Positions 9,192 to 25,588 of a stretch of 25,588 nt of DNA are shown piece after piece. This DNA comes from a virus. The position numbers and the translations under genes were made by a program. The first letter of the stretch is position 1, and each line of letters starts with the position of its first letter. The DNA is taken from the IMG/VR virus record IMGVR_UViG_3300034104_005805, positions 1 to 25,588 of that record; one strand, given 5' to 3'. Below the pieces are notes generated by a model. It was not told where the DNA came from. It searched no databases and worked only from the letters and a program-made list of their open reading frames with translations.

Positions 9192-10445
9192 TTAATTGCT
9201 TAACGGTGCTTTAATTGTTGGGTGTGATTGGTAATTCTCTAAAGTAAAATCATTACTATCTAAATGACCAAATAAACTAACATCAAAAGAATCCCAAAAA
9301 GATGTGGTTTTATTTATTACCAATTTAGGTAATTCAAAGGGCTCTCTTGTTCTTTTTGGTGTTGGTGTATAATATTCATTATCGAAGTCTGGTAAATTAT
9401 TTGGGTCAAAATACCTTTCCATACCAGTTTCATAATTATTGGTGAACCAAATATTATATCTTTCTTCGTCAGTTAACTCCCTACCAATCTGTTCTTGAGC
9501 TTGATCCAGGTGATTAAGATACAGATGTGTATCACCAAGATTTCCTATAAGCTGGTCGGGAACCATGTTGACCGCTTTTGCAATGATTTCTAATAACAGA
9601 CCATAAGAAGCAATGTTGAATGGTAAACCTAAGAATGTATCTACTGAACGTTGATTCCACATTAGTGAGATTGCTCGTTTAGGAACGCTGTATTCGTCAA
9701 AATGAAATTGTTTGAAGTTAATACCACTTATATGTGGTTGTAAATCTCTACCACATACTTTTTTGTAAATTTCAAATCTTTCATCGTGACTCAACTCTCT
9801 TGTATATACTTGAAATCCATAATGACAAGGTGGAAGAACCATTTGGTCTAATTCACCTACATTCCAAGCATTAACCATTAATCGTCTTGAGTCTGGGTTT
9901 GTTTTGAGTTCAGAGATTAGGTTTGCGATTTGGTCTACTAATTTAGTTTTAACTTCATAGTGATTTTTACCAAACTCATCATACTTAATTTCAATTCCTT
10001 CCCAACTTCTCCATTGCTTACCATACACGGGCCCGAGCTCACCCCACTTCTTAGCAAACTCATCATCTGTTTTGATTCTGTTGATGAATTCTTCTTGTGT
10101 TAATCTATAACCTAACTCAGTCCTTTTTTCCTTTGACATATTAGGTAAGATTTTAGCATCTTCAATTAAATAGTTCTTATAGGCATCTCCATCCCAAATA
10201 TGACAGCTATTGTCTATAAGGAACTTGATGTTTGTATCGCCTCGTAAGAACCATATAAGTTCTGTTGCGATTGTCTTAAACGGCATCTTCTTGGTTGTAA
10301 GTAGAGGAAACCCGTCTTTCATGTTGTGACGTATCGTGTAACCAAAAATACTCTTAGTCCCAGTACCAGTTCGATCTTTTTTTTCTACACCGTAATCCAA
10401 AATTGATTGGAGTAGGTTTTGATATTGTTTGTCTATATTGTTCAT
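9192..10445 (-). CDS. thyA: Thymidylate synthase (folate-dependent, ThyA type)
   Basis: This enzyme converts dUMP to dTMP with methylenetetrahydrofolate, supplying thymidine for the A/T-rich genome. The key motifs are present: DRTGTGT with the phosphate-binding Arg25, the DSRRLMVNAWN segment (185-195), the nucleophile Cys207 in VLPPCHYGFQVY, the RSVDTFLGLPFNIASY block (266-281), GNLGDTHLYLNH (301-312) and the SHPTIKAPLSN C-terminus. At 417 residues it is much longer than the 264-residue E. coli enzyme. Insertions lie at about 95-135 (YKNYLIEDAK...FAKKWGE), at about 216-255 between the active-site strand and the RSVDTFLG block, and at about 325-385. All catalytic residues I looked for are present, so it should be active. 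It is the fourth gene of the leftward operon and, with the dNMP kinase, forms a dNTP-supply pair. Confidence 0.97.
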   Translation of the reverse strand: MNNIDKQYQNLLQSILDYGVEKKDRTGTGTKSIFGYTIRHNMKDGFPLLTTKKMPFKTIATELIWFLRGDTNIKFLIDNSCHIWDGDAYKNYLIEDAKILPNMSKEKRTELGYRLTQEEFINRIKTDDEFAKKWGELGPVYGKQWRSWEGIEIKYDEFGKNHYEVKTKLVDQIANLISELKTNPDSRRLMVNAWNVGELDQMVLPPCHYGFQVYTRELSHDERFEIYKKVCGRDLQPHISGINFKQFHFDEYSVPKRAISLMWNQRSVDTFLGLPFNIASYGLLLEIIAKAVNMVPDQLIGNLGDTHLYLNHLDQAQEQIGRELTDEERYNIWFTNNYETGMERYFDPNNLPDFDNEYYTPTPKRTREPFELPKLVINKTTSFWDSFDVSLFGHLDSNDFTLENYQSHPTIKAPLSN

Positions 10446-10481: not shown

Positions 10482-12179
10482 TTAAAGATTGTATCTGGAT
10501 TTACTTGAATTGAACTCACTGAGAACTTCAGAACCACTTCTTAATGATTTCCATATCTTAAACTCACCCATTAACGCATTCATAAAATATGAACTACCGC
10601 CAATTGCCCCAATCCACCAGTTAGCGTTATTTGTACTAATATTGGCGACAGGTGAACCACCACTTGCGGTGGCAATTTCAACACCATTTTTATAAAACTT
10701 AATTGTTTGGTTTACCTTATCAAAGACGTAGGTTATCATTTGCCACTGACTTTCAACAATTGTATTTATCGCTGTTGATTGTGTACCACCAGCGGTACCA
10801 TTACCCGCTTCAAAATTCATGGTTAGATTTGTTGTGTTCCAGTTATTCCAACTTATTTTAAAACCATTTGTTGCTGTATTAGCCCCAGCATTTGACATTA
10901 AACAGTTTATACTATATTCGTTTCTAGGATAAACCCAAGCATTCACAGTTATGGTATTACCAAAATTATATTGGCTGAATTGTATTCTATCAGAACCACC
11001 ATCAAAATCAAAAACACCGTTATTTGTGTTAGAATCATAAGAAACCCCATTCAGAGTACCAGCCGTTCCACTTATATTACCCAATGTCCCTATATTTGTT
11101 AAAGCAGTTCCACTACCAGCATATGACGCTGGATCACCTGGGTCGTAATAAAATTCAGCGGTATTTGTTGCGCCAGTTACTGGAAATCTATTACTTTCAG
11201 CGTTATAATTTGATAAAACTTCTTGAGCCGATAACGCTGAACTGTATATTCTAACAACACCTAAGTGGCCATCAATTAAATTACCAGCTGATGCGACATC
11301 ATCCCATCTTCTCATTAATCTCACCTCACCACCACTTTCTGGGGTCATATCACCATATGATAATGTGGAATCCAAAGAACCGTTAACATATTGATTTAAT
11401 GTTGTTCCATCATATGTTGCAACAATATGATACCACTCATTCAATGTCGGTTCGATACCCACCGTATTATGCCACCCAAACCCATCAAAAAAACCAACAC
11501 ATAATTTATAACTGCTCGGAGCACCGTTTGTACCAATACTAAAATTTAATACCTCACCATCGAATTGGTTAGTGACAACGGATGAAACTTTATCTGTTAA
11601 TGGTTTTGTTATTTTAACCCAAGCTTCAACTGTAAATGTAGTTAAACTACCTAAGTTGGGAAAAGTTGCATATTGGGTTGCTGTATCACTAAATTGTAAA
11701 ATACCACCAAAATCAGTTGAAAATGTTGGTGAATTATATAAAACACCACTTTCATCAACAAATCCTGTTAATGTCCTCCAACTACTACCACTTTGTGGAT
11801 AGCTATTTAAATGACCAGCATCCACATAAAAAACTAAGTTATCTGTTACAATGTCTGGTAAAACTGTGTTAATAATATAATAATCGTTTTGAGTGTATAA
11901 CCAATTAAATGCGTCAGCAACCTCCCCAAAAACTGCTGTGCCTCTTAATCTCGTTACTATTGATAGTAACTCAGAATTATTATTTGCAACAAAAATATTT
12001 AATTTACCAGCACCAGTTGCTTTGTATATTACGTAACCACCCATTGGCGCATCAATGCCATTATAAAACCCAGTCGTACTGGTTGGCCCATAACTTATGT
12101 TATTAGCGCCTAATGTTAAATTATGTCTGGTTATCGAAGAAGATTCTTCTACTGAACTATTTTTAATTACTGGTGGCAT
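10482..12179 (-). CDS. Double LamG/concanavalin-like domain protein, probable tail or surface adhesin
   Basis: This 565-residue protein has an N-terminal region (1-108) with a YVIYKATGAGKLNIF strand pair, then two tandem beta-sandwich modules of the LamG/concanavalin type. Module 1 covers about 110-332 and opens LVFYVDAGHLNSYPQSGSSW; it includes TVEAWVKI, EWYHIVATYDGTTLNQYVNG and GHLGVVRIYSSALSAQEV. Module 2 covers about 342-565 and opens EFYYDPGDPASYAGSGTAL; it includes TVNAWVYP, QWQMITYVFDKVNQTIKFYKNG and GEFKIWKSLRSGSEVLSEF. The repeated AWV, Y(V)NG/KNG and final helix motifs are diagnostic of this fold, which binds glycans or proteins. No secretion signal is seen, as expected for a virion protein. 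It likely contributes to host recognition. A TATTTAT box lies 15 bases before the ATG. Confidence 0.85.
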   Translation of the reverse strand: MPPVIKNSSVEESSSITRHNLTLGANNISYGPTSTTGFYNGIDAPMGGYVIYKATGAGKLNIFVANNNSELLSIVTRLRGTAVFGEVADAFNWLYTQNDYYIINTVLPDIVTDNLVFYVDAGHLNSYPQSGSSWRTLTGFVDESGVLYNSPTFSTDFGGILQFSDTATQYATFPNLGSLTTFTVEAWVKITKPLTDKVSSVVTNQFDGEVLNFSIGTNGAPSSYKLCVGFFDGFGWHNTVGIEPTLNEWYHIVATYDGTTLNQYVNGSLDSTLSYGDMTPESGGEVRLMRRWDDVASAGNLIDGHLGVVRIYSSALSAQEVLSNYNAESNRFPVTGATNTAEFYYDPGDPASYAGSGTALTNIGTLGNISGTAGTLNGVSYDSNTNNGVFDFDGGSDRIQFSQYNFGNTITVNAWVYPRNEYSINCLMSNAGANTATNGFKISWNNWNTTNLTMNFEAGNGTAGGTQSTAINTIVESQWQMITYVFDKVNQTIKFYKNGVEIATASGGSPVANISTNNANWWIGAIGGSSYFMNALMGEFKIWKSLRSGSEVLSEFNSSKSRYNL

Positions 12180-12659: not shown

Positions 12660-12743
12660 TGATATTTATTTTTGATAAATTTAGGTAAAGTCTTTGATTG
12701 TGTCAAGTTTTTACTTAAATTTGCAAAAACATTATTAAAGACT
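12660..12743. promoter_or_regulatory. Divergent intergenic region before the clpC-like gene
   Basis: This is an 84-base A/T-rich gap if clpC-like translation starts at 12744. A TATTTAT box on the plus strand covers 12663-12669, giving a leader of about 70 bases. No clear Shine-Dalgarno is present ahead of either ATG. An in-frame TTG at 12672 could extend the protein but lacks any family similarity. Confidence 0.35.
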
Positions 12744-15206
12744 ATGGGCGAAAAAATGTCAAACGAATTAAGAAAAGCATTCACTATTGGTAGAGATAGT
12801 GCTGTAAACTACAAAGATCCAAAGCTTCGAATTGAGCATATATTATATGGTATACTCGTATCGGATAATATAATTCATGAGATTTTAAAAGAAAAAGTTA
12901 AAGATTTTGACCTGTTGGTTCAGGACATCGAAAACTTTAATAAAAAACAATCTGAAAATGACAATACGATTAATTCAGAGTCGATTCTCACATTTGAACC
13001 TGAATTACAGGAAATATTGAAGTTGTGTACTAAAAACAAGAAAAAAGATGATTTCATTACACCAGAATTGTTTTTTACATTGTCTTTTGATATTGACATA
13101 TCTGTAATAAAATTAATGAAAGATTACGGTATTTCAAAAACATACATACAAAGAAAGCTGAAACAGTTAAATGTGTCATCAACTTATTTTAAGGAAAATG
13201 AAGATGATGGTAATAAACGAGGTGGCAATAATGATGGTCAAACATCCAGAGTTAAATCAAAGACACCTATATTAGATAATTTTAGTAGGGATTTAACGTC
13301 ATTAGCAACAGAGGGTAAATTAGACCCTGTTATTGGCCGTGATGAAGAAGTTGAGCGAGTTGCGCAAATTTTGACCAGAAGAAAGAAAAACAACCCAGTT
13401 TTAATTGGTGATCCAGGTGTTGGTAAAACAGCTATTGCGGAGGGGCTTGCAATTAAAATTGCGATGAATGAATGCCCAAGACCATTACAAAATAAAAGAT
13501 TGGTTACTTTAGATTTAACATCACTTGTTGCTGGTACAAAATATCGTGGTCAATTTGAGGAGAGAATTAAAGCGTTATTGGAGGAAGTAAGGGAAAACCC
13601 AAATATTATTTTATTTGTTGATGAATTACATACTTTGGTTGGCGCTGGTAATTCATCTGGTGCTTTAGATGCCGCAAACGTATTTAAACCCGCATTGGCT
13701 CGTGGTGAAGTTCAGTGTATTGGTGCAACAACCTTGGATGAATATCGTGAGCATATTGAAAAAGATGGGGCTCTTGATAGAAGATTTCAAAAAGTAATGG
13801 TTAACCCACCAACTTTGGAACAAACAAAAGAAATTTTAATGAACATCAGAGGTCGTTATGAAGATTTTCATAAAGTTGAGTACACCGATGATGCCATTAT
13901 TGAAATTATAAGACTTGCTGATCGTTATATAACAAATCGTGAGTTCCCTGATAAAGCGATTGATATTCTTGATGAGGCTGGTTCGCGTACACAGGTTAGT
14001 ATAAAACCACCACAAAAAATTAAGGAACTCGAAAATGAAATCAAAGAAATTAAAAAACGAAAACAGGAAGTCGTAAAAAGCCAAAAATTTGAGTTGGCCG
14101 CTGATTTACGGGATCTTGAAAAAAAGACAAGTGCTGAATTGGAAAAAGAAAATAGGGTTTGGAAGGAAAATATTGACAATAAAAGAATGGTCGTAACAGA
14201 TGAAATGATATGTGAAGTTGTTTCAATGATGACTGGAATACCGATCAGTAAAATTTCTCAAAACGAGATTAAAAAATTATTGACAATTGATACTGAATTG
14301 TCAAATACAGTTATTGGTCAAAATCAAGCCATTCAAAAAATTTCATCGGCAATAAAAAGAAACAGAACTGGTATCAGAAAACAAAATAAACCCATCGGTT
14401 CATTTTTATTTATAGGCCCAACTGGTGTTGGTAAAACTGAACTTGCAAAAGTTTTGGCTGAAAAGATTTTTGGTAGTCAGGATGCTTTGATTAGAATTGA
14501 TATGTCCGAGTATGGGGAAAAATTTAATGTGTCTAAACTTATTGGTGCCCCTCCAGGTTATGTTGGTTATAATGAAGGTGGGCAATTAACTGAAAAAATA
14601 AAAAACAAACCATATTCATTGGTGTTGTTTGATGAAATTGAAAAAGCGCATCCAGATATTTTTAACGTTCTTCTTCAATTGTTAGATGAAGGTCATTTAA
14701 CAGATGGTAGTGGTAGAAAAATTAATTTTAAAAATACCATTATCATTATGACATCCAATATTGGGTTGAAAGATGTGCAAGATTTTGGTACCAAAATAGG
14801 ATTTTCAACCGATGAGGATCCAACAAAATCCGCACAAGATATTATTGAAAAAAGTTTACGTAAATTTTTCAAACCAGAATTTTTAAATCGTTTGGATGAA
14901 TTAGTTTATTTTAATTACCTAAATAAAGATGATATTTTAAAAATAATCGACATTCAATTAAACGATTTGGGTGAAAGATTAGCCGAATCAAATTATAGTT
15001 TTAAAATAACAAAACAAGCAAAAGAAAAATTAGCTGAACTTGGTTATGATAAAAAATATGGTGCTAGAGAATTAAATAGAACCATTCAAAAATACATTGA
15101 AGATCCAATATCAGAAGAACTATTAATACATAACATGCCACAAGAGGGTATCTTTAACATATCATATGATACGAAAAAAGATAAAATAATTGTGAAATTA
15201 GGGTAG
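12744..15206 (+). CDS. clpC: ClpC-type AAA+ unfoldase with two ATPase domains
   Basis: This is an ATP-driven protein unfoldase or disaggregase of the Clp/Hsp100 family. From the ATG at 12744 (820 residues; 12756 is an alternative) it has a divergent double Clp-N repeat (about 5-150) and AAA domain 1 with Walker A GDPGVGKT (222-229), Walker B ILFVDELH (about 289-296) and a LDRRFQK arginine finger. A middle region carries a UVR-like helix (KSQKFELAADLRDLEKK). AAA domain 2 has Walker A GPTGVGKTE (about 558), GAPPGYVGY, Walker B LVLFDEIEKAHP and SNIG. A C-terminal D2-small domain (GYDKKYGARELNR) follows. An IGF tripeptide (685-687), placed as in ClpC/ClpX ClpP-docking loops, predicts binding to host ClpP. 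The UVR helix and this loop favour ClpC over ClpB. All ATPase motifs are intact. Such enzymes are unusual in phages. It lies directly upstream of the giant fibre gene on the same strand. Confidence 0.93.
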   Translation: MGEKMSNELRKAFTIGRDSAVNYKDPKLRIEHILYGILVSDNIIHEILKEKVKDFDLLVQDIENFNKKQSENDNTINSESILTFEPELQEILKLCTKNKKKDDFITPELFFTLSFDIDISVIKLMKDYGISKTYIQRKLKQLNVSSTYFKENEDDGNKRGGNNDGQTSRVKSKTPILDNFSRDLTSLATEGKLDPVIGRDEEVERVAQILTRRKKNNPVLIGDPGVGKTAIAEGLAIKIAMNECPRPLQNKRLVTLDLTSLVAGTKYRGQFEERIKALLEEVRENPNIILFVDELHTLVGAGNSSGALDAANVFKPALARGEVQCIGATTLDEYREHIEKDGALDRRFQKVMVNPPTLEQTKEILMNIRGRYEDFHKVEYTDDAIIEIIRLADRYITNREFPDKAIDILDEAGSRTQVSIKPPQKIKELENEIKEIKKRKQEVVKSQKFELAADLRDLEKKTSAELEKENRVWKENIDNKRMVVTDEMICEVVSMMTGIPISKISQNEIKKLLTIDTELSNTVIGQNQAIQKISSAIKRNRTGIRKQNKPIGSFLFIGPTGVGKTELAKVLAEKIFGSQDALIRIDMSEYGEKFNVSKLIGAPPGYVGYNEGGQLTEKIKNKPYSLVLFDEIEKAHPDIFNVLLQLLDEGHLTDGSGRKINFKNTIIIMTSNIGLKDVQDFGTKIGFSTDEDPTKSAQDIIEKSLRKFFKPEFLNRLDELVYFNYLNKDDILKIIDIQLNDLGERLAESNYSFKITKQAKEKLAELGYDKKYGARELNRTIQKYIEDPISEELLIHNMPQEGIFNISYDTKKDKIIVKLG

Positions 15207-15209
15207 ACA

Positions 15210-15254
15210 TTATCGAAATTTAGACTATTTATAGATAGTTTAAATTTTCGATAA
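15210..15254 (+). promoter_or_regulatory. Long hairpin between clpC-like and giant fibre genes, with TATTTAT in its loop
   Basis: Left arm 15210-15228 and right arm 15235-15254 pair over about 19 bp with one bulged base and one G-U pair, around the loop TTATAG. It fills the whole 51-base gap and ends three bases before the fibre ATG. There is no U-run for classical termination. It could be a weak terminator for clpC-like, a translation-blocking leader for the fibre, or an RNA-processing site. A TATTTAT box at 15226-15232, also a possible promoter, lies in the loop and left arm. Confidence 0.6.
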
Positions 15255-15257
15255 TAA

Positions 15258-18200
15258 ATGGCAGTAATATATTTAAGATGTGCACTTCAACGTCCACTTA
15301 CGTTTGGTGAATTAGATGCAAACTTTCAAAACCTAAATGATGCAATAATAAATTTAGGTTTAAATGACTTAACGGATGTAGTAATAACAACTGGCGGAAC
15401 CGCTGGTCAAATTTTAGTTTATGATGGTACAAACTGGGTTAATAAAACATTAAACTCAGCTGTAACACCAGAATACATTGTCACATATAATCCGACAACT
15501 GGTGAGTACACTTATACACAAATAAATCCTGGTGCAACTATTTCATCAACAACGCCCACTGGTTTAACTCAGGGGGCTTTGTGGTTTAATGACGTTGATG
15601 GCGTTTTATATATTTTATATGATGGTGTAAACTGGATACCAGCAACTTCTGTAACAAGTGGAACCTCGGGTACAGCTGGTACAAGTGGTACATCAGGTGA
15701 GTCTGGAACAAGTGGCACAAGTGGTGAATCGGGAACAAGTGGTACATCAGGTGAAAGTGGTACATCAGGTACTTCAGGTGAATCAGGAACAAGTGGTACA
15801 TCATGGTTAGGTGATAATTCATACGGATCATTTAGTGATTCAACAACACAATCTATACAAGTTGATATCAGCGGTGCTGCAATACCAACTACATGGTCAT
15901 ATAATACAACTGAAGTAGCAAATGAAATTTCTGTTCAAAATGGAACAGAAATAACAGTTGATAAAGCGGGTGTTTACGAAATAGGGTATTCTGCTCAAAT
16001 AGAAGCGACACAAAATGCAAATGGGACAGATATTATTATTTGGGCCCGTATAAATGGTAATGATGAACCAAGAACAAGTTCAACCATCACAATGTCTGGT
16101 AATGGTGCATACCATTTACCATTTGTTGCATATCAATTTAATTTACAAGCAAATGATTATGTTGAGTTTGTGTTTTACTCAACTAATATACATGTACAAA
16201 TAACATCATTAGGGGCATCTGGTTCACCAGTATACCCAGCAGCACCATCTGTTATAGTGGTAGCAAAAAGAATTGACAAGTACATGGTGTTACCAAGTAC
16301 TTCTGGAACATCTGGTACAGCTGGTAGTTCAGGAACGAGCGGTACTTCAGGGATCTCAAATACTAGTGGAACAGCGGGTACATCGGGTACAGCTGGCACA
16401 TCAGGTACATCGGGTACATCAGGAGAAAATGGTACATCGGGTGAAAATGGCACATCGGGGGAATCGGGCACATCAGGTACTGCTGGCACAGCGGGTACTT
16501 CTGGGACAAGTGGAACTGTGGGGACAAGTGGAACTTCTGGAGAATCTGCCACATCAGGAGAGTCTGGCACATCTGGCGAATCAGGTACATCAGGTACTGC
16601 TGGCACAGCGGGTACTTCTGGGACAAGTGGAACTTCAGGTACTGCTGGAACAAATGGAACAAGTGGTGAATCTGGAACTTCAGGTGAAAGTGGAACATCA
16701 GGTGAATCTGGAACTTCAGGAACTGCTGGAACAAGTGGAACTTCAGGGTCTGCTGGAACATCTGGAACAAGTGGTGAGTCTGGAACATCGGGTGAAAGTG
16801 GTACATCAGGTGAATCGGGTACTTCAGGTGAATCGGGTACTTCAGGTACTGCTGGAACTACTGGAACAAGTGGTACATCGGGTGAATCTGGAACAAGTGG
16901 TGAATCTGGAACTTCGGGGGAATCGGGTACAAGTGGCGAGTCTGGAACTTCAGGAACAGCGGGAACAAGCGGGGAATCAAATACCTCGGGAACTTCAGGT
17001 ACATCGGGTACATCAGGAGAAAATGGTACATCAGGAGAATCGGGAACAACTGGAACATCGGGAACTTCTGGAACATCAGGTACTTCTGGAACTTCGGGGG
17101 AATCGGGTACAAGTGGAACATCAGGTACATCAGGAGAGAACGGAACTTCAGGAGAATCGGGTACCTCAGGAGAATCTGGAACATCGGGTACTTCTGGAAC
17201 ATCAGGTACTGCTGGAACAGCGGGTACTTCTGGTGAGTCTGGAACTTCAGGAGAGGGCGGTACCTCAGGAGAATCGGGAACAAGTGGAGAATCTGGAACA
17301 AGTGGCACAGCGGGAACGTCAGGAGAATCTGGTACATCAGGTACATCAGGAACAAGTGGGGAATCAGGAACAAGTGGAGAGTCTGGAACAAGTGGAGAAT
17401 CGGGAACTTCAGGTGAAAGTGGTACATCAGGTACTGCTGGAACAAGTGGGGAATCGGGAACAAGTGGAGAATCGGGAACAAGTGGAGAATCGGGAACTTC
17501 AGGTGAAAGTGGTACATCAGGTACTGCTGGAACAAGTGGGGAATCAAATACATCGGGTACATCAGGTACTGCTGGAACAAGTGGTGAATCAGGCACAAGT
17601 GGTGAATCAGGCACAAGTGGTGAATCAGGCACAAGTGGTACAGCTGGTACATCAGGAGAATCGGGAACAGCTGGTACGTCAGGTACATCAGGAGAGAGCG
17701 GTACTTCAGGAGAATCGGGTACGTCAGGTGAATCTGGAACTTCGGGTACAGCGGGTACGTCAGGAGAATCAGGTACGTCAGGAACAAGTGGGGAATCTGG
17801 AACAGCTGGAACAAGTGGAATAAGTGGTACAGCGGGAACAAGCGGGGAATCTGGAACAACAGGTACCTCTGGGACAAGTGGAACTGCGGGAACAAGTGGA
17901 GAATTAGGAACATCAGGTGAAAGTGGTACATCAGGTACTTCAGGTGAAAGTGGAACTGCGGGAACTTCGGGTACTGCTGGAACTTCGGGTACTGCTGGAA
18001 CGTCAGGAGAATCTGGTACATCGGGTGAATCTGGAACAAGTGGGGAATCTGGAACAAGTGGTACATCTGGAACAAGTGGTGTTTCAGGTTTATCAGGTGA
18101 ATCTGGAGAATCAGGAACATCAGGTACTTCTGGAACATCAGGTGAATCGGGAACTTCGGGTGAGTCTGGAACATCAGGTGAAAGTGGAACGGCGGGTACT

Positions 18201-21200
18201 TCTGGAACTTCAGGTGAAAGTGGTACAGCGGGTACCTCAGGCGAAAGCGGCACTGCGGGTACGTCAGGTTTATCAAATACATCAGGTACAGCGGGAACTT
18301 CAGGTGAAAGTGGTACAGCAGGTACTTCTGGAACTTCAGGTGAGTCTGGAACTTCAGGTGAAAGTGGTACATCAGGAATAAGTGGCACCACTGGGACAAG
18401 TGGTACATCAGGGGAGTCTGGAACATCAGGTGAAAGTGGTACAAGTGGTGAATCTGGAACTTCAGGTGAATCAGGAACAACGGGCACATCTGGAACTTCA
18501 GGTGAGTCTGGAACTTCAGGTGAATCTGGAACAACGGGCACATCTGGAACTTCAGGTGAGTCTGGAACTTCAGGTGAATCTGGAACAACAGGTACTTCAG
18601 GTACTTCAGGTGAATCTGGAACTTCAGGTGAATCTGGAACAACAGGTACTTCTGGAACATCAGGAGAATCGGGAACAAGTGGTGAATCTGGAACAACAGG
18701 TACTTCTGGAACATCAGGAGAATCGGGAACAAGTGGTGAATCTGGAACTTCAGGTGAAAGTGGTACAGCGGGTACTTCTGGAACTTCAGGTGAATCTGGA
18801 ACTTCAGGTGAATCTGGAACAACAGGTACTTCAGGTACTTCAGGTGAATCTGGAACTTCAGGTGAAAGTGGTACAGCGGGTACTTCTGGAACATCAGGAG
18901 AATCGGGAACAAGTGGTGAATCTGGAACTTCAGGTGAAAGTGGTACAGCGGGTACTTCTGGAACATCAGGAGAATCGGGAACAAGTGGTGAATCTGGAAC
19001 TTCAGGTGAAAGTGGAACAACAGGTACTTCAGGTACTTCAGGAGAATCTGGAACAAGTGGTGAATCTGGAACTTCAGGTGAATCAGGAACAACGGGCACA
19101 TCTGGAACTTCAGGTGAAAGTGGTACAGCGGGTACTTCTGGAACATCAGGAGAATCGGGAACAAGTGGAGAAAGTGGAACAACAGGTACTTCAGGTACGT
19201 CAGGTGAGTCTGGAACTTCAGGAGAATCGGGCACTTCTGGTACAGCTGGAACAAGTGGAGAATCAGGAACATCGGGTGAAAGTGGTACATCAGGAACATC
19301 AGGTGAATCGGGAACTTCGGGTGAAAGTGGTACAAGTGGTACTGCTGGAACTTCAGGGGAGTCTGGTACCTCAGGTACATCAGGAACTTCGGGTGAAAGT
19401 GGAACTTCGGGTACAGTTGGAACAAGTGGTACTGCTGGAACTTCAGGGGAGTCTGGTACAAGCGGAGAGTCTGGTACCTCAGGTACATCAGGAACTTCAG
19501 GTGAATCTGGAACAACAGGTACTTCTGGAACAAGTGGAGAATCAAATACATCAGGAACTACTGGAACAAGTGGTACATCAGGAGAATCAGGTACAACAGG
19601 TACATCTGGGACAAGTGGAGAATCGGGAACTGCTGGTACATCAGGTACAGCTGGTACGGCTGGAACAAGTGGTGAGTCTGGAACAAGTGGAGAATCAAAT
19701 ACATCAGGTACTTCAGGTACTTCAGGAGAATCTGGAACAACAGGTACTTCAGGTACTTCAGGAGAATCTGGAACAAGTGGTGAATCTGGAACAAGCGGAG
19801 AAAGTGGAACAACAGGTACTTCAGGTACGTCAGGTGAGTCTGGAACTTCAGGTGAAAGTGGTACAGCGGGTACTTCTGGAACATCAGGAGAATCTGGAAC
19901 AACAGGTACGTCTGGAACAAGTGGTGAATCTGGAACATCAGGCGAGTCTGGAACAACAGGTACGTCTGGAACAAGCGGAGAAAGTGGAACAACAGGTACT
20001 TCAGGTACGTCAGGTGAGTCTGGAACTTCAGGTGAATCAGGAACAACAGGTACTTCAGGTACTTCAGGAGAATCTGGAACAAGTGGTGAATCTGGAACAT
20101 CAGGCGAGTCTGGAACAACAGGTACGTCTGGAACATCAGGTGAATCGGGAACGTCAGGAGAATCTGGAACAAGTGGAGAAAGTGGAACAACGGGTACTTC
20201 TGGTACATCAGGTGAATCTGGAACAAGTGGAGAATCAGGAACAAGTGGAGAATCAGGAACTGCTGGGACATCAGGTACATCGGGTGAAAGTGGTACATCA
20301 GGAACAAGTGGAACGGCTGGAACAAGTGGAGAATCAAATACATCAGGTACTTCAGGCGAGTCTGGAACAACAGGTACGTCTGGAACTGCTGGAACAAGTG
20401 GAGAATCAAATACATCGGGTACGTCTGGAACATCAGGCGAGTCTGGAACAACAGGTACGTCTGGAACATCAGGTGAATCGGGAACGTCAGGAGAATCTGG
20501 AACTTCTGGTACTTCAGGAACAAGTGGGGAATCAGGAACAAGTGGGGAATCAGGTACAAGCGGAGAGTCTGGTACCTCAGGTACATCAGGAACAAGTGGT
20601 GAGTCGGGTACTTCTGGAACAAATGGAACAAGTGGAGAATCTGGTACCTCAGGTACATCAGGAACAAGTGGTACATCAGGAGAATCAGGAACTGCTGGTA
20701 CAGCTGGAACAAGTGGAACTTCAGGAGAATCAGGAACTGCTGGAACAAGTGGAACTTCAGGAGAATCAGGAACTGCTGGAACAAGTGGTACATCAGGAGA
20801 ATCAGGAACTGCTGGAACAAGTGGAACTTCAGGTACTTCAGGTATTGGTGGTGTTAGTGGAATATCAGCTCAAAGTGGTACATCGGGAACATCAGGTAGT
20901 TCTGGTGAATCAGGATCAAGTGGTACATCAGGAACTTCATCAACATCAGGTACTTCTGGTACGGCTGGAACAAGTGGTGAATCTGGAACAAGTGGTGAAT
21001 CTGGAACAAGCGGTACATCAGGAACTGCTGGAACTTCAGGAATAAGTGGTACAGCTGGTACAAGTGGTACATCAGGTGAAAGTGGAACAACGGGTACTTC
21101 TGGTACATCAGGTGAATCTGGAACAAGTGGAGAATCAGGAACTGCTGGGACATCAGGTACATCGGGTGAATCAGGAACAACAGGTACATCAGGTACATCA

Positions 21201-24200
21201 GGAACAAGTGGTGAGTCTGGCACTTCAGGCGAATCTGGAACAAGTGGAACATCAGGAACAAGTGGTGTTTCTGGGTTATCAGGTGAATCTGGAGAATCAG
21301 GAACATCAGGTACTTCAGGTACATCGGGTGAATCAGGAACATCAGGTACAGTTGGTACAAGTGGTATATCAGGAACAGCGGGTACTTCAGGAATAAGTGG
21401 TACGGCTGGAACAAGTGGTACTTCGGGCACTTCAGGTGAAAGTGGAACCGCTGGAACAAGTGGAGAATCAAATACTTCTGGTACTGCTGGTACAGCTGGA
21501 ACAAGTGGTATTTCAGGAACGGCTGGTACTTCGGGTGAAAGTGATACATCTGGAACCTCAGGTACCTCTGGAACATCAGGTGAAAGTGGAACATCAGGGA
21601 TAAGTGAAACTTCAGGAACTGCGGGTACTTCAGGAACAGCTGGAACTTCAGGTATCTCTGGTACAGCTGGAACAAGTGGGGAATCAAATACATCGGGTAC
21701 AGCGGGTACATCGGGAATAAGTGGAACATCGGGAACATCAGGGACTTCGGGAATAAGTGGAACATCGGGTACAGCTGGAACAAGTGGAGAATCAAATACA
21801 TCTGGAACATCAGGAACAGCTGGTACTTCAGGTGAAAGTGGTACTGCTGGAACAAGTGGTACGGCTGGAACATCAGGTGAAAGTGAAACATCAGGAACAG
21901 CTGGTACTTCTGGAACAGCTGGTACTTCAGGTGAAAGTGGTACTGCTGGAACAAGTGGTACTGCTGGAACATCAGGTGAAAGTGGAACCGCTGGAACAAG
22001 TGGAGAATCAAATACTTCTGGTACTGCTGGTACTTCTGGAACAGCGGGAACATCAGGTATTTCAGGTACCGCTGGTACCTCGGGTACAGCTTCAACTGCT
22101 GGAACTTCAGGAACAGCTGGAACTTCAGGTATCTCTGGTACAGCTGGAACAAGTGGGGAATCAAATACTTCAGGTACTTCTGGCACTGCGGGAACATCAG
22201 GAATAAGTGGAACGGCTGGAACAAGTGGAGAATCAAATACTTCAGGAACAAGTGGTACTGCGGGTACTTCAGGTATCTCAGGCACAGCGGGAACATCAGG
22301 AACTGCATCAACAGCTGGAACAAGTGGAACTGCGGGAACAAGTGGATTATCGGGTACAGCTGGTACATCAGGAATAAGTGGAACTGCGGGAACAAGTGGA
22401 ACATCAGGTACTGCGGGAACAAGTGGAATAAGTGGTACTGCGGGAACATCGGGTACAGCATCAACTGCGGGAACTTCAGGGACTGCTGGTACATCAGGAA
22501 TAAGTGGTACTGCGGGAACATCGGGTACAGCATCAACTGCGGGAACAAGTGGTACATCTGGAACTTCAGGAGAATCGGGAACTGCTGGTACATCAGGTAC
22601 GGCATCAACTGCGGGAACAAGTGGTACAGCTGGTACATCAGGTATCTCTGGTACAGCTGGTACATCAGGTTTATCAAATACATCAGGAACTTCTGGTACA
22701 GCTGGTACAAGTGGTGTTTCTGGGACTGCTGGTACATCAGGTACATCATCAACTTCGGGTACTGCTGGTACATCAGGTACTTCATCTACTGCTGGTACAT
22801 CAGGTACTGCGGGAACATCGGGAATAAGTGGAACTGCTGGTACATCAGGGTTATCAAATACATCAGGAACTTCAGGAACAGCTGGGTCAGCGGGTACATC
22901 TGGTACAGCGGGAACTTCAGGTATCTCAGGAACTGCTGGTACATCAGGGTTATCAAATACTTCAGGTACTGCTGGAACAAGCGGAACTTCGGGTATTTCA
23001 GGAACTTCTGGAACTGCTTCAACATCAGGTACTTCAGGAACTGCTGGTACATCAGGTGAAAGTGGTACAGCGGGAACTGCGGGAACATCATCAACTGCTG
23101 GAACTTCGGGAACAGCTGGGACAAGTGGATTATCAAATACATCAGGCACTTCTGGTACTTCAGGAATAAGTGGTACTTCAGGAACAGCTGGTACATCAGG
23201 AGAATCGGGAACTGCTGGTACATCAGGAACTGCTTCAACAGCGGGAACAAGTGGTACTGCGGGAACTTCAGGTATTTCTGGAACTGCTGGTACATCAGGT
23301 ATTTCTGGAACTTCGGGTACTGCGGGTACTTCTGGTACATCATCAACATCTGGTACTGCGGGAACTTCAGGGTTATCAAATACATCTGGAACATCAGGAA
23401 CTGCTGGAACATCAGGAATAAGTGGAACTGCTGGTACCTCGGGAACTTCATCAACATCTGGTACTGCTGGAACATCAGGTACTGCTGGAACAAGTGGTAT
23501 TTCAGGAACCGCGGGTACATCAGGTTTATCAAATACATCTGGAACATCAGGAACAGCTGGAACTTCAGGTATCTCAGGAACTGCGGGTACATCAGGTACA
23601 GCTTCAACTTCAGGAACTGCTGGTACTTCTGGTACTTCAGGTTTAAGTGGTACAGCTGGAACATCAGGAACAGCATCAACTTCTGGAACATCTGGAACAG
23701 CTGGAACAAGTGGTGTTTCAGGAACTGCTGGAACAAGTGGTACATCATCAACATCAGGAACTGCTGGAACTTCAGGAACAAGTGGAACCGCTTCAACATC
23801 GGGAACATCTGGAACTGCGGGTACATCAGGAATAAGTGGTACTGCTGGAACAAGTGGTACATCATCAACATCAGGTACTGCTGGTACTTCGGGTACTGCT
23901 GGAACAAGTGGATTATCTGGTACTGCGGGTACTTCTGGTACTTCATCAACTGCTGGTACAAGTGGTACTGCGGGAACTTCAGGGATAAGTGAAACATCAG
24001 GTACTGCTGGTACTTCATCAACTGCTGGTACAAGTGGAACTGCGGGAACAAGTGGTAGAAGTGGTACTGCTGGAACAAGTGGAACTTCATCAACATCAGG
24101 AACTTCAGGTACTGCTGGTACAAGTGGAACTTCATCAACTGCTGGTACAAGTGGAACGGCTGGAACATCAGGAATAAGTGGAACTGCGGGAACAAGTGGA

Positions 24201-25588
24201 ACATCATCAACTTCAGGAACAGCTGGTACATCAGGTTTATCAAATACATCGGGTACTTCTGGTACTGCTGGAACAAGTGGTAGAAGTGGTACTGCTGGAA
24301 CAAGTGGAACATCATCAACATCAGGTACAGCTGGTACAAGTGGGGAATCAAATACATCGGGTACTTCTGGTACTGCTGGCACAAGTGGTATATCAGGAAC
24401 AGCGGGTACATCAGGTTTATCAAATACTTCAGGTACTTCTGGTACCGCTGGATCAGCTGGCACTTCTGGTACTGCGGGAACTTCAGGTATAAGTGGTACA
24501 GCTGGAACTTCAGGAACAGCTGGTACATCAGGTACCGCTTCAACTGCTGGAACATCAGGTACAGCTGGAACAAGTGGTATTTCAGGAACTGCTGGAACAT
24601 CAGGAACATCATCAACAGCTGGAACATCTGGAACAGCTGGAACAAGCGGTATCTCAGGAACAGCAGGTACATCAGGTACATCAAATACATCAGGTACTGC
24701 GGGTACATCAGGGACTACTGGTACTTCAGGAACATCTGGAACTGCGGGTATCTCAGGAACTGCGGGAACAAGTGGTACAGCTTCAACAGCTGGAACATCA
24801 GGTACTGTTGGTACTTCAGGAATAAGCGGAACAGCTGGAACAAGTGGAACTTCATCAACTGCTGGTACAAGCGGAACAGCGGGTACTTCAGGAATAAGCG
24901 GAACAGCTGGAACAAGTGGTACATCATCAACTGCTGGTACTTCAGGAACAGCTGGAACTTCGGGGACAGCGTCAACAGCGGGAACTTCAGGGACTGCGGG
25001 TACATCAGGAATAAGTGGTACAGCTGGAACAAGTGGAACTGCTTCAACAGCGGGAACAAGTGGTACATCTGGAACAAGTGGAACTTCATCAACTGCTGGT
25101 ACAAGTGGTACATCTGGAACTTCAGGTATCTCTGGTACAGCTGGTACATCAGGAACAGCTTCAACTGCTGGTACATCAGGAACTGCGGGTACATCAGGTG
25201 AAAGTAGTACAGCGGGAACATCTGGTACTGCTGGTACTTCAGGTAGAAGTGGAACTGCGGGAACAAGTGGTACATCATCAACAGCTGGAACAAGCGGAAC
25301 TTCAGGAACAAGTGGTGTTTCAGGAACTGCTGGAACATCTGGTACAGCTGGTACATCTGGTAGAAGTGGAACTGCGGGAACAAGTGGTACATCATCAACT
25401 GCTGGAACAAGTGGAACATCAGGAACAAGTGGTGTTTCTGGGTTATCAGGTGAATCTGGAGAATCATCTACATCAGGAACTTCAGGTACATCAGGTACAT
25501 CGGGTGAAAGTGGTACAGCTGGTACATCAGGAACAGCTTCAACAGCTGGAACTTCAGGTACTGCTGGTACATCAGGATTATCAAATAC
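15258..25588 (+). CDS. Giant Gly-X-Y (collagen-like) tail-fibre protein, C-terminus beyond the window
   Basis: This frame opens with the ATG at 15258 and runs to the right edge: 3,443 complete codons, with the frame checked at many points and no stop seen. Residues 1-131 resemble phage fibre N-termini (PLTFGELDANFQNLN, GQILVYDGTNWVNK, GALWFNDVDGVLYILYDG), the probable attachment end. Residues 133-182 are a short Gly-X-Y tract. Residues about 183-347 form a C1q/TNF-like jelly roll (TVDKAGVYEIGYSAQIEA, IIWARINGND, ANDYVEFVFYS, VIVVAKRI), the usual trimerising domain. Residues 348 onward are Gly-X-Y, mainly GTS, GES, GTA and GIS. Triplet register is unbroken and I saw no proline. By analogy it is a trimeric receptor-binding or whisker-like fibre. 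Two long proline-rich antisense frames and several plus frames over the tract are shadows. The size, the order (jelly roll before the main tract) and the synonymous-codon mixture are unusual. Confidence 0.9.
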   Translation, partial: MAVIYLRCALQRPLTFGELDANFQNLNDAIINLGLNDLTDVVITTGGTAGQILVYDGTNWVNKTLNSAVTPEYIVTYNPTTGEYTYTQINPGATISSTTPTGLTQGALWFNDVDGVLYILYDGVNWIPATSVTSGTSGTAGTSGTSGESGTSGTSGESGTSGTSGESGTSGTSGESGTSGTSWLGDNSYGSFSDSTTQSIQVDISGAAIPTTWSYNTTEVANEISVQNGTEITVDKAGVYEIGYSAQIEATQNANGTDIIIWARINGNDEPRTSSTITMSGNGAYHLPFVAYQFNLQANDYVEFVFYSTNIHVQITSLGASGSPVYPAAPSVIVVAKRIDKYMVLPSTSGTSGTAGSSGTSGTSGISNTSGTAGTSGTAGTSGTSGTSGENGTSGENGTSGESGTSGTAGTAGTSGTSGTVGTSGTSGESATSGESGTSGESGTSGTAGTAGTSGTSGTSGTAGTNGTSGESGTSGESGTSGESGTSGTAGTSGTSGSAGTSGTSGESGTSGESGTSGESGTSGESGTSGTAGTTGTSGTSGESGTSGESGTSGESGTSGESGTSGTAGTSGESNTSGTSGTSGTSGENGTSGESGTTGTSGTSGTSGTSGTSGESGTSGTSGTSGENGTSGESGTSGESGTSGTSGTSGTAGTAGTSGESGTSGEGGTSGESGTSGESGTSGTAGTSGESGTSGTSGTSGESGTSGESGTSGESGTSGESGTSGTAGTSGESGTSGESGTSGESGTSGESGTSGTAGTSGESNTSGTSGTAGTSGESGTSGESGTSGESGTSGTAGTSGESGTAGTSGTSGESGTSGESGTSGESGTSGTAGTSGESGTSGTSGESGTAGTSGISGTAGTSGESGTTGTSGTSGTAGTSGELGTSGESGTSGTSGESGTAGTSGTAGTSGTAGTSGESGTSGESGTSGESGTSGTSGTSGVSGLSGESGESGTSGTSGTSGESGTSGESGTSGESGTAGTSGTSGESGTAGTSGESGTAGTSGLSNTSGTAGTSGESGTAGTSGTSGESGTSGESGTSGISGTTGTSGTSGESGTSGESGTSGESGTSGESGTTGTSGTSGESGTSGESGTTGTSGTSGESGTSGESGTTGTSGTSGESGTSGESGTTGTSGTSGESGTSGESGTTGTSGTSGESGTSGESGTSGESGTAGTSGTSGESGTSGESGTTGTSGTSGESGTSGESGTAGTSGTSGESGTSGESGTSGESGTAGTSGTSGESGTSGESGTSGESGTTGTSGTSGESGTSGESGTSGESGTTGTSGTSGESGTAGTSGTSGESGTSGESGTTGTSGTSGESGTSGESGTSGTAGTSGESGTSGESGTSGTSGESGTSGESGTSGTAGTSGESGTSGTSGTSGESGTSGTVGTSGTAGTSGESGTSGESGTSGTSGTSGESGTTGTSGTSGESNTSGTTGTSGTSGESGTTGTSGTSGESGTAGTSGTAGTAGTSGESGTSGESNTSGTSGTSGESGTTGTSGTSGESGTSGESGTSGESGTTGTSGTSGESGTSGESGTAGTSGTSGESGTTGTSGTSGESGTSGESGTTGTSGTSGESGTTGTSGTSGESGTSGESGTTGTSGTSGESGTSGESGTSGESGTTGTSGTSGESGTSGESGTSGESGTTGTSGTSGESGTSGESGTSGESGTAGTSGTSGESGTSGTSGTAGTSGESNTSGTSGESGTTGTSGTAGTSGESNTSGTSGTSGESGTTGTSGTSGESGTSGESGTSGTSGTSGESGTSGESGTSGESGTSGTSGTSGESGTSGTNGTSGESGTSGTSGTSGTSGESGTAGTAGTSGTSGESGTAGTSGTSGESGTAGTSGTSGESGTAGTSGTSGTSGIGGVSGISAQSGTSGTSGSSGESGSSGTSGTSSTSGTSGTAGTSGESGTSGESGTSGTSGTAGTSGISGTAGTSGTSGESGTTGTSGTSGESGTSGESGTAGTSGTSGESGTTGTSGTSGTSGESGTSGESGTSGTSGTSGVSGLSGESGESGTSGTSGTSGESGTSGTVGTSGISGTAGTSGISGTAGTSGTSGTSGESGTAGTSGESNTSGTAGTAGTSGISGTAGTSGESDTSGTSGTSGTSGESGTSGISETSGTAGTSGTAGTSGISGTAGTSGESNTSGTAGTSGISGTSGTSGTSGISGTSGTAGTSGESNTSGTSGTAGTSGESGTAGTSGTAGTSGESETSGTAGTSGTAGTSGESGTAGTSGTAGTSGESGTAGTSGESNTSGTAGTSGTAGTSGISGTAGTSGTASTAGTSGTAGTSGISGTAGTSGESNTSGTSGTAGTSGISGTAGTSGESNTSGTSGTAGTSGISGTAGTSGTASTAGTSGTAGTSGLSGTAGTSGISGTAGTSGTSGTAGTSGISGTAGTSGTASTAGTSGTAGTSGISGTAGTSGTASTAGTSGTSGTSGESGTAGTSGTASTAGTSGTAGTSGISGTAGTSGLSNTSGTSGTAGTSGVSGTAGTSGTSSTSGTAGTSGTSSTAGTSGTAGTSGISGTAGTSGLSNTSGTSGTAGSAGTSGTAGTSGISGTAGTSGLSNTSGTAGTSGTSGISGTSGTASTSGTSGTAGTSGESGTAGTAGTSSTAGTSGTAGTSGLSNTSGTSGTSGISGTSGTAGTSGESGTAGTSGTASTAGTSGTAGTSGISGTAGTSGISGTSGTAGTSGTSSTSGTAGTSGLSNTSGTSGTAGTSGISGTAGTSGTSSTSGTAGTSGTAGTSGISGTAGTSGLSNTSGTSGTAGTSGISGTAGTSGTASTSGTAGTSGTSGLSGTAGTSGTASTSGTSGTAGTSGVSGTAGTSGTSSTSGTAGTSGTSGTASTSGTSGTAGTSGISGTAGTSGTSSTSGTAGTSGTAGTSGLSGTAGTSGTSSTAGTSGTAGTSGISETSGTAGTSSTAGTSGTAGTSGRSGTAGTSGTSSTSGTSGTAGTSGTSSTAGTSGTAGTSGISGTAGTSGTSSTSGTAGTSGLSNTSGTSGTAGTSGRSGTAGTSGTSSTSGTAGTSGESNTSGTSGTAGTSGISGTAGTSGLSNTSGTSGTAGSAGTSGTAGTSGISGTAGTSGTAGTSGTASTAGTSGTAGTSGISGTAGTSGTSSTAGTSGTAGTSGISGTAGTSGTSNTSGTAGTSGTTGTSGTSGTAGISGTAGTSGTASTAGTSGTVGTSGISGTAGTSGTSSTAGTSGTAGTSGISGTAGTSGTSSTAGTSGTAGTSGTASTAGTSGTAGTSGISGTAGTSGTASTAGTSGTSGTSGTSSTAGTSGTSGTSGISGTAGTSGTASTAGTSGTAGTSGESSTAGTSGTAGTSGRSGTAGTSGTSSTAGTSGTSGTSGVSGTAGTSGTAGTSGRSGTAGTSGTSSTAGTSGTSGTSGVSGLSGESGESSTSGTSGTSGTSGESGTAGTSGTASTAGTSGTAGTSGLSN
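15654..15803 (+). repeat. First short Gly-X-Y tract
   Basis: About 50 residues made only of GTS, GES and GTA triplets, ending at a Trp (TSW, codon at 15804) that begins the jelly-roll domain. It probably forms a short trimeric stalk between the N-terminal attachment part and the jelly roll. Confidence 0.9.
18481..18588 (+). repeat. Perfect 54-base tandem duplication in zone A
   Basis: Copies 18481-18534 and 18535-18588 are identical (18 residues, six triplets each). This is a sign of recent local expansion inside the repeat tract. Confidence 0.9.
18701..18964 (+). repeat. 84-base identical block repeated at 180-base offset
   Basis: 18701-18784 and 18881-18964 are identical, 180 bases apart. 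A partial third copy begins at 18953, 72 bases after the second, and matches for 63 bases. A second pair with the same 180-base offset lies near 19785-19856 and 19965-20036. Confidence 0.85.
20841..20876 (+). repeat. Irregular linker near the boundary of zones A and B
   Basis: The triplets GIG, GVS, GIS and AQS follow each other here. GIG and AQS (the only Gln seen in the tract, with Ala in place of Gly) occur nowhere else that I noticed. The triplet register is maintained across it. Confidence 0.7.
24057..25400 (+). repeat. Arginine-containing module, four copies
   Basis: The only arginine triplets (GRS) I saw in the main tract are at codons 24057, 24282, 25245 and 25362. Each is followed by the same peptide, SGTAGTSGTSST, so they are copies of one module. 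They lie in the last 1.6 kb of the window. Confidence 0.75.

Follow-up and report, generated by a model that had tools for sequence, protein, structure and literature searches.

A giant proline-free Gly-X-Y gene encoding a candidate collagen-like fibre in a probable T4-superfamily phage

Among the phage proteins with collagen-like domains, EPclA is encoded by prophages of E. coli O157:H7; its collagen domain of 111 residues appears in electron microscopy as a rod of about 30 nm (PMC3368898). In bacterial and animal collagens, X is usually proline and Y either threonine or proline, and the collagen-like protein BclA is glycosylated (PMC8968730). Furthermore, predicted proteins of up to 7,694 aa were described from huge phages, some of them tentatively structural (PMC7162821).

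We analyzed a window of 25,588 bases, which is an entire virus record. An ATG-initiated frame of 3,443 codons, preceded by a gene for a Clp-type ATPase, is stop-free up to the contig end; the stop codon is absent because the record ends there, and the missing 3' end of the gene was looked for in other virus records and not found. When the stretch was shuffled with dinucleotides preserved (n = 100), the longest stop-free frame had a mean of 150 aa and a maximum of 251 aa. An open frame of 1,572 aa on the minus strand (20870-25588) was rejected as a by-product of repeat codons. The features of the locus are listed in Table 1.

Table 1. Positions of the giant gene, its parts and its upstream elements in the window
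Feature	Position	Strand	Remarks
Clp-type AAA+ ATPase gene, conserved upstream neighbour	12672..15206	+	phrog_4871 E 5e-257; AAA_2, ClpB_D2-small
TATTTATA promoter-like motif	15226..15233	+	32 bp before ATG; kept upstream of relatives' giant genes
Giant Gly-X-Y fibre gene	15258..25586	+	3,443 codons, 3' end open at contig end
N-terminal domain, residues 1-132	15258..15653	+	shared by all relatives; putative virion-attachment part
Short Gly-Thr-Ser linker, residues 133-187	15654..15818	+	between N-terminal and jelly-roll domains
BclA/C1q/TNF-like jelly-roll domain, residues 188-349	15819..16304	+	AlphaFold2 + Foldseek
Gly-X-Y tract, proline-free	16305..25586	+	1,032 triplets

From residue 350 onward, at least 3,096 residues follow a single Gly-X-Y register with zero slips or switches. 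A first, sequence-only reading of this DNA had proposed a giant proline-free Gly-X-Y fibre gene, and the open codons, the 1,032 triplets and the complete lack of proline bear this out. The first 349 residues lie outside the long tract, and the tract is not pure, 6.7% of its Gly positions being S, N, E, A or D, many of these 8 triplets apart. The Gly position is occupied by G (93.3%), S (3.7%) and N (2.4%), the X position mainly by T (75%) and E (17.5%), and the Y position by S (75.5%) and A (20.3%). The tract contains 184 Glu, four Arg and neither Pro, Lys nor aromatic residues. The usual collagen pattern is not followed, with Pro absent, Thr in X and Ser or Ala in Y; Pfam Collagen (PF01391) matched with 1,156 bits versus a cut-off of 27.2. 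Triplets with Glu in X fill the first half of the tract and are nearly absent from the second, where Y is more often Ala, X more often Ile, Leu or Val, and the Gly position more often occupied by other residues.

The N-terminal domain was common to all relatives in an alignment of nine and showed weak matches to cyanophage tail fibres (E 0.05-0.07); it is presumed to be the part that attaches to the virion. Sequence searches with this domain found no confident known relative, searches of PDB sequences with it and with the jelly-roll domain gave nothing useful, and an AlphaFold2 model of residues 1-361 from nine sequences was poor (pLDDT 47.5). The jelly-roll domain of about 160 residues, modeled with AlphaFold2 from 41 related sequences, reached a pLDDT of 90.9. 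With this model, Foldseek returned BxpB, BclA, F-BclA, 4-1BBL, EDA and C1QL2 from the PDB, and from viral models uncultured Caudovirales proteins, several of them named collagen triple helix repeat or Peptidase S74. A match to Pfam BclA_C (PF18573; E 9e-5, 22.8 bits) lay below the cut-off of 38. As modeled, the domain carries a TNF/C1q-type fold; members of this superfamily are trimeric as a rule, and a trimer would be expected here as well. The domain is apparently mobile: in one relative (G013) it lies within the second giant gene, and in two other phages (L183 and L184) within another, smaller Gly-X-Y gene.

Relatives were found via the N-terminal part and via the upstream Clp gene, and the order of Clp gene and giant gene was the same in them. 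Complete giant genes encode 5,316 aa in G002 (a record of 298.8 kb), 3,852 aa and then 3,592 aa in G001, 2,574 aa and then 4,969 aa in G013, and 4,627 aa in G023; in other relatives the frames run off the contig after more than 4,264-4,532 aa. Tracts in the intact genes comprise roughly 2,300-4,700 residues. Great length recurs across many lineages, with two giant genes per genome in two relatives. Some of the giant proteins terminate in a C-terminal domain or in a Peptidase_S74 fibre chaperone, and the window stops short of the C-terminus. The second giant protein of G001 ends in a Peptidase_S74 domain (E 3e-16); the C-termini of G023 and of the second giant protein of G013 look alike and resemble this end. 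The C-terminal domain of the first giant protein of G001 was found in no isolate. The sequence-only reading of the gene was supported in part; it had overlooked the BclA/C1q-like domain, TATTTATA and, in relatives, the S74 ends and the second giant gene.

A stop or frameshift nearby, or an assembly artefact, had been named as a danger to the claim of a giant gene. Across 9.5-13 kb, the tract never differed by more than one mismatch between separate assemblies of the G010 group; a single in-frame deletion was seen in some of them (432 or 72 bp), and one of 144 bp in a shorter assembly. We rejected an assembly artefact because independent assemblies are concordant and complete homologues of 2,574-5,316 aa are known, and the worry is thereby largely answered.

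Many contigs end within Gly-X-Y tracts, namely the window (15258-25588) and L010-L020, L023, L030 and L031; therefore, short-read assemblies probably conceal more such genes.

The motif TATTTATA lies 31-37 bp 5' of the ATG in the giant gene of the window, in that of G002, in both of G013 and in the second of G001, and TATTTAT is retained before all eight first giant genes compared. In the G002 region, TATTTATA was found in sense orientation before 10 of 74 ORFs, as compared to 4 in antisense and 0.7 for random genic positions; the prohead-protease-like gene is among the 10. From this distribution, we infer that TATTTATA acts as the late promoter of this phage group. The T4 late promoter TATAAATA in sense orientation was rejected, the sense-enriched motif being TATTTATA.

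In G002, a gp23-type capsid gene (PF07068, E 1e-74) lies about 7 kb 3' of the giant gene; it is followed by look-alikes of prohead protease, portal and terminase, these three identified by eye. The capsid protein of G005 is 78% identical to that of G002; the short contig of the window is without a capsid gene. No close isolate was found, capsid matches being below 60% identity. The best explanation, given gp23 in relatives, is that the giant gene belongs to a T4-superfamily phage with relatives of about 300 kb. The source is a freshwater-type virus of bacteria.

Two further genes of the window lie on the minus strand. One (10482-12179; 565 aa) encodes a Concanavalin A-like (Laminin_G_3) protein that is perhaps another virion adhesin; TATTTATA lies 22 bp before its ATG. 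The other (9192-10445) encodes a thymidylate synthase of 417 aa; its Pfam match covers residues 6-363 and is split in two, so roughly 100 additional residues are present within the enzyme. In G005, a terminase-like gene (G005:C1:174726-178131, in L170) matches in three pieces around a frame of 793 aa and may carry an intein or intron.

The tracts of G002 and L084 differed by 55 synonymous and 10 nonsynonymous changes (pN/pS 0.08), and residue changes affected none of 102 Gly codons, 9 of 101 X codons and 1 of 101 Y codons. The pair G010/G006 is more diverged, and its Gly positions were likewise the most conserved (0.12 versus 0.28 and 0.21). These comparisons indicate that the tract is under purifying selection, with Gly codons the most conserved. 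Tract indels in all compared pairs were multiples of 9 bp, which alone is no proof of selection, as slippage in 9-bp repeats and the aligner both favour them; the sole exception, of 6 bp, was in the N-terminal part. The argument for selection therefore rests on the codon evidence. Indels between near-identical strains measured 72, 144 and 432 bp, multiples of 72 bp or 8 triplets. Tract length probably evolves as units of 9 bp and 72 bp are gained and lost.

In G002, G023 and G024, a glycosyltransferase gene begins 60-180 bp 3' of the giant gene, in G022 about 0.7 kb behind it; G002, G022 and G024 have a second glycosyltransferase gene nearby. G005 (320.9 kb) carries the same two genes directly after Clp, with the giant gene absent from that place. 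A Gly-X-Y tract of at least 20 triplets was present in 9 of 76 loci with the glycosyltransferase, and in 7 of these 9 the tract gene was its immediate upstream neighbour. An exclusive partnership was rejected, as the enzyme gene elsewhere often follows a gene that is not fibre-like. The glycosyltransferase was looked for in bacterial genomes and not found. Its adjacency to the giant gene in relatives hints at Thr/Ser glycosylation of the tract, which had been raised from the window alone, and is suggestive only.

The smaller Gly-X-Y gene with the same jelly-roll domain (1,242-1,525 aa; L183:9437-17030, L184 similar) adjoins a sulfotransferase gene, an APS-kinase-like gene and a related glycosyltransferase gene, possibly a cassette for sulfation and glycosylation of a fibre. 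Behind the second giant gene of G013 (L174/L178), a gene on the opposite strand resembles, by eye, a sugar carbamoyltransferase.

We consider it fairly probable that the product of the giant gene is a virion fibre of a T4-superfamily phage, trimeric, collagen-like, about 0.9-1.3 micrometres in contour length and possibly glycosylated; that it trimerises, forms a triple helix, sits on the virion and carries glycans is what we infer from the evidence above. Three chains would assemble, their register set by the jelly-roll domain near the base and by the C-terminal chaperone, and in the Gly-X-Y part they would coil around one another as a triple helix, long and thin. Docking onto the virion would fall to the N-terminal domain, host binding to the distal, chaperoned end. 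At 0.286 nm per residue, and assuming an extended helix, the contour length is at least 885 nm for the window tract and 1,336 nm for G002; the earlier figure of about 0.9 micrometre was arithmetically sound and presupposes such a helix. The tract would then be a tether of about 0.9 micrometre (window, a lower bound) to 1.3 micrometres (longest relative), which may widen the capture radius or pass through a glycan coat.

An unmodified collagen helix should be weak because Pro is absent and positive charge is almost nil; therefore, either glycans, a low temperature and the great length make up for this, or the tract folds in another way. Glycosylation of Thr/Ser by the neighbouring enzymes may stand in for proline as stabiliser. 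Counting against a collagen helix are the non-Gly residues at Gly positions, 6.7% here and up to 24% in one relative. The specific proposal that glycosylation by phage-encoded enzymes stabilises a proline-free collagen triple helix a micrometre in length is a tentative one that we hold to be doubtful. If true, it would mean that a phage brings its own enzymes to decorate a fibre several times the length of its particle; this would be a new way of making collagen stable, and the fibre would rank among the longest known from viruses.

The tract might instead be a mucin-like brush, a disordered and densely O-glycosylated Thr/Ser polymer which shields the virion or sticks to glycans. Its composition, mostly Thr, Ser, Gly and Ala with no proline, and the glycosyltransferase genes that immediately follow the giant gene in several relatives agree with this. 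However, a brush needs no Gly at every third residue, yet the register has not slipped and Gly codons are the most conserved; such strict register argues against disorder, as does the junction of the tract with a trimer-type domain and, in relatives, with a fibre chaperone. We regard the brush as unlikely.

Gly at every third residue without proline also suits the packing of polyglycine and PPII helices, and chains folding back or lying alongside each other in a bundle of polyglycine-II type would give a shorter, thicker rod. The small residues that replace Gly at 8-triplet spacing could mark strand ends. However, this periodicity is found in the second half of the tract and the spacing is irregular in the first half, many runs of more than 40 triplets are unbroken, and no turn-like residues were seen. 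The absence of turn-like breaks argues against a folded bundle, which we rate as less likely still than a brush.

Neutral expansion, in which slippage or recombination lengthened a short functional fibre gene whose length is itself without function, fits the 72, 144 and 432 bp indels and the 8-triplet periodicity, but is very improbable given the low pN/pS of the tract, the age of the repeats (GTS is encoded by 33 different 9-mers) and the great length in many lineages, sometimes with two genes per genome.

If the trimeric collagen-like fibre is correct, some phages devote at least 5% of their genome to a tether; in G002, the share is 15.95 kb out of 298.8 kb. This raises the questions of the distance from the cell at which a phage makes first contact, of whether a collagen-like helix without proline is possible, and of whether phage fibres are glycosylated. 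For materials work, the giant genes offer long repeat proteins encoded with diverse codons.

Collagen-like phage fibres as a kind are known; for the present scale and composition, no counterpart was found among the open papers searched, and earlier notice elsewhere is possible. The huge-phage proteins are likewise very large predicted products of very large phage genomes, and collagen is not mentioned in the main text of that study (PMC7162821). The trimeric fibres and spikes with Peptidase_S74 share the chaperone, which ends the second giant protein of G001 and, by resemblance, that of G023; they differ from the giant proteins, whose shaft is Gly-X-Y and whose S74 end is seen in relatives. 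BclA, F-BclA and C1QL have in common with the present protein a collagen-like tract joined to a TNF/C1q-type jelly roll. In them, however, the jelly roll is C-terminal to the tract, whereas here it lies ahead of the long tract; the residues at X and Y differ, and the domain of this phage gene matches in sequence below the Pfam cut-off. EPclA-type tail fibres resemble the giant protein in having a Gly-X-Y region between globular fibre domains. Their 111 residues and about 30 nm compare with at least 3,096 residues without proline, and the extended fibre of about a micrometre would be some 30-40 times as long as this best-studied phage collagen domain.
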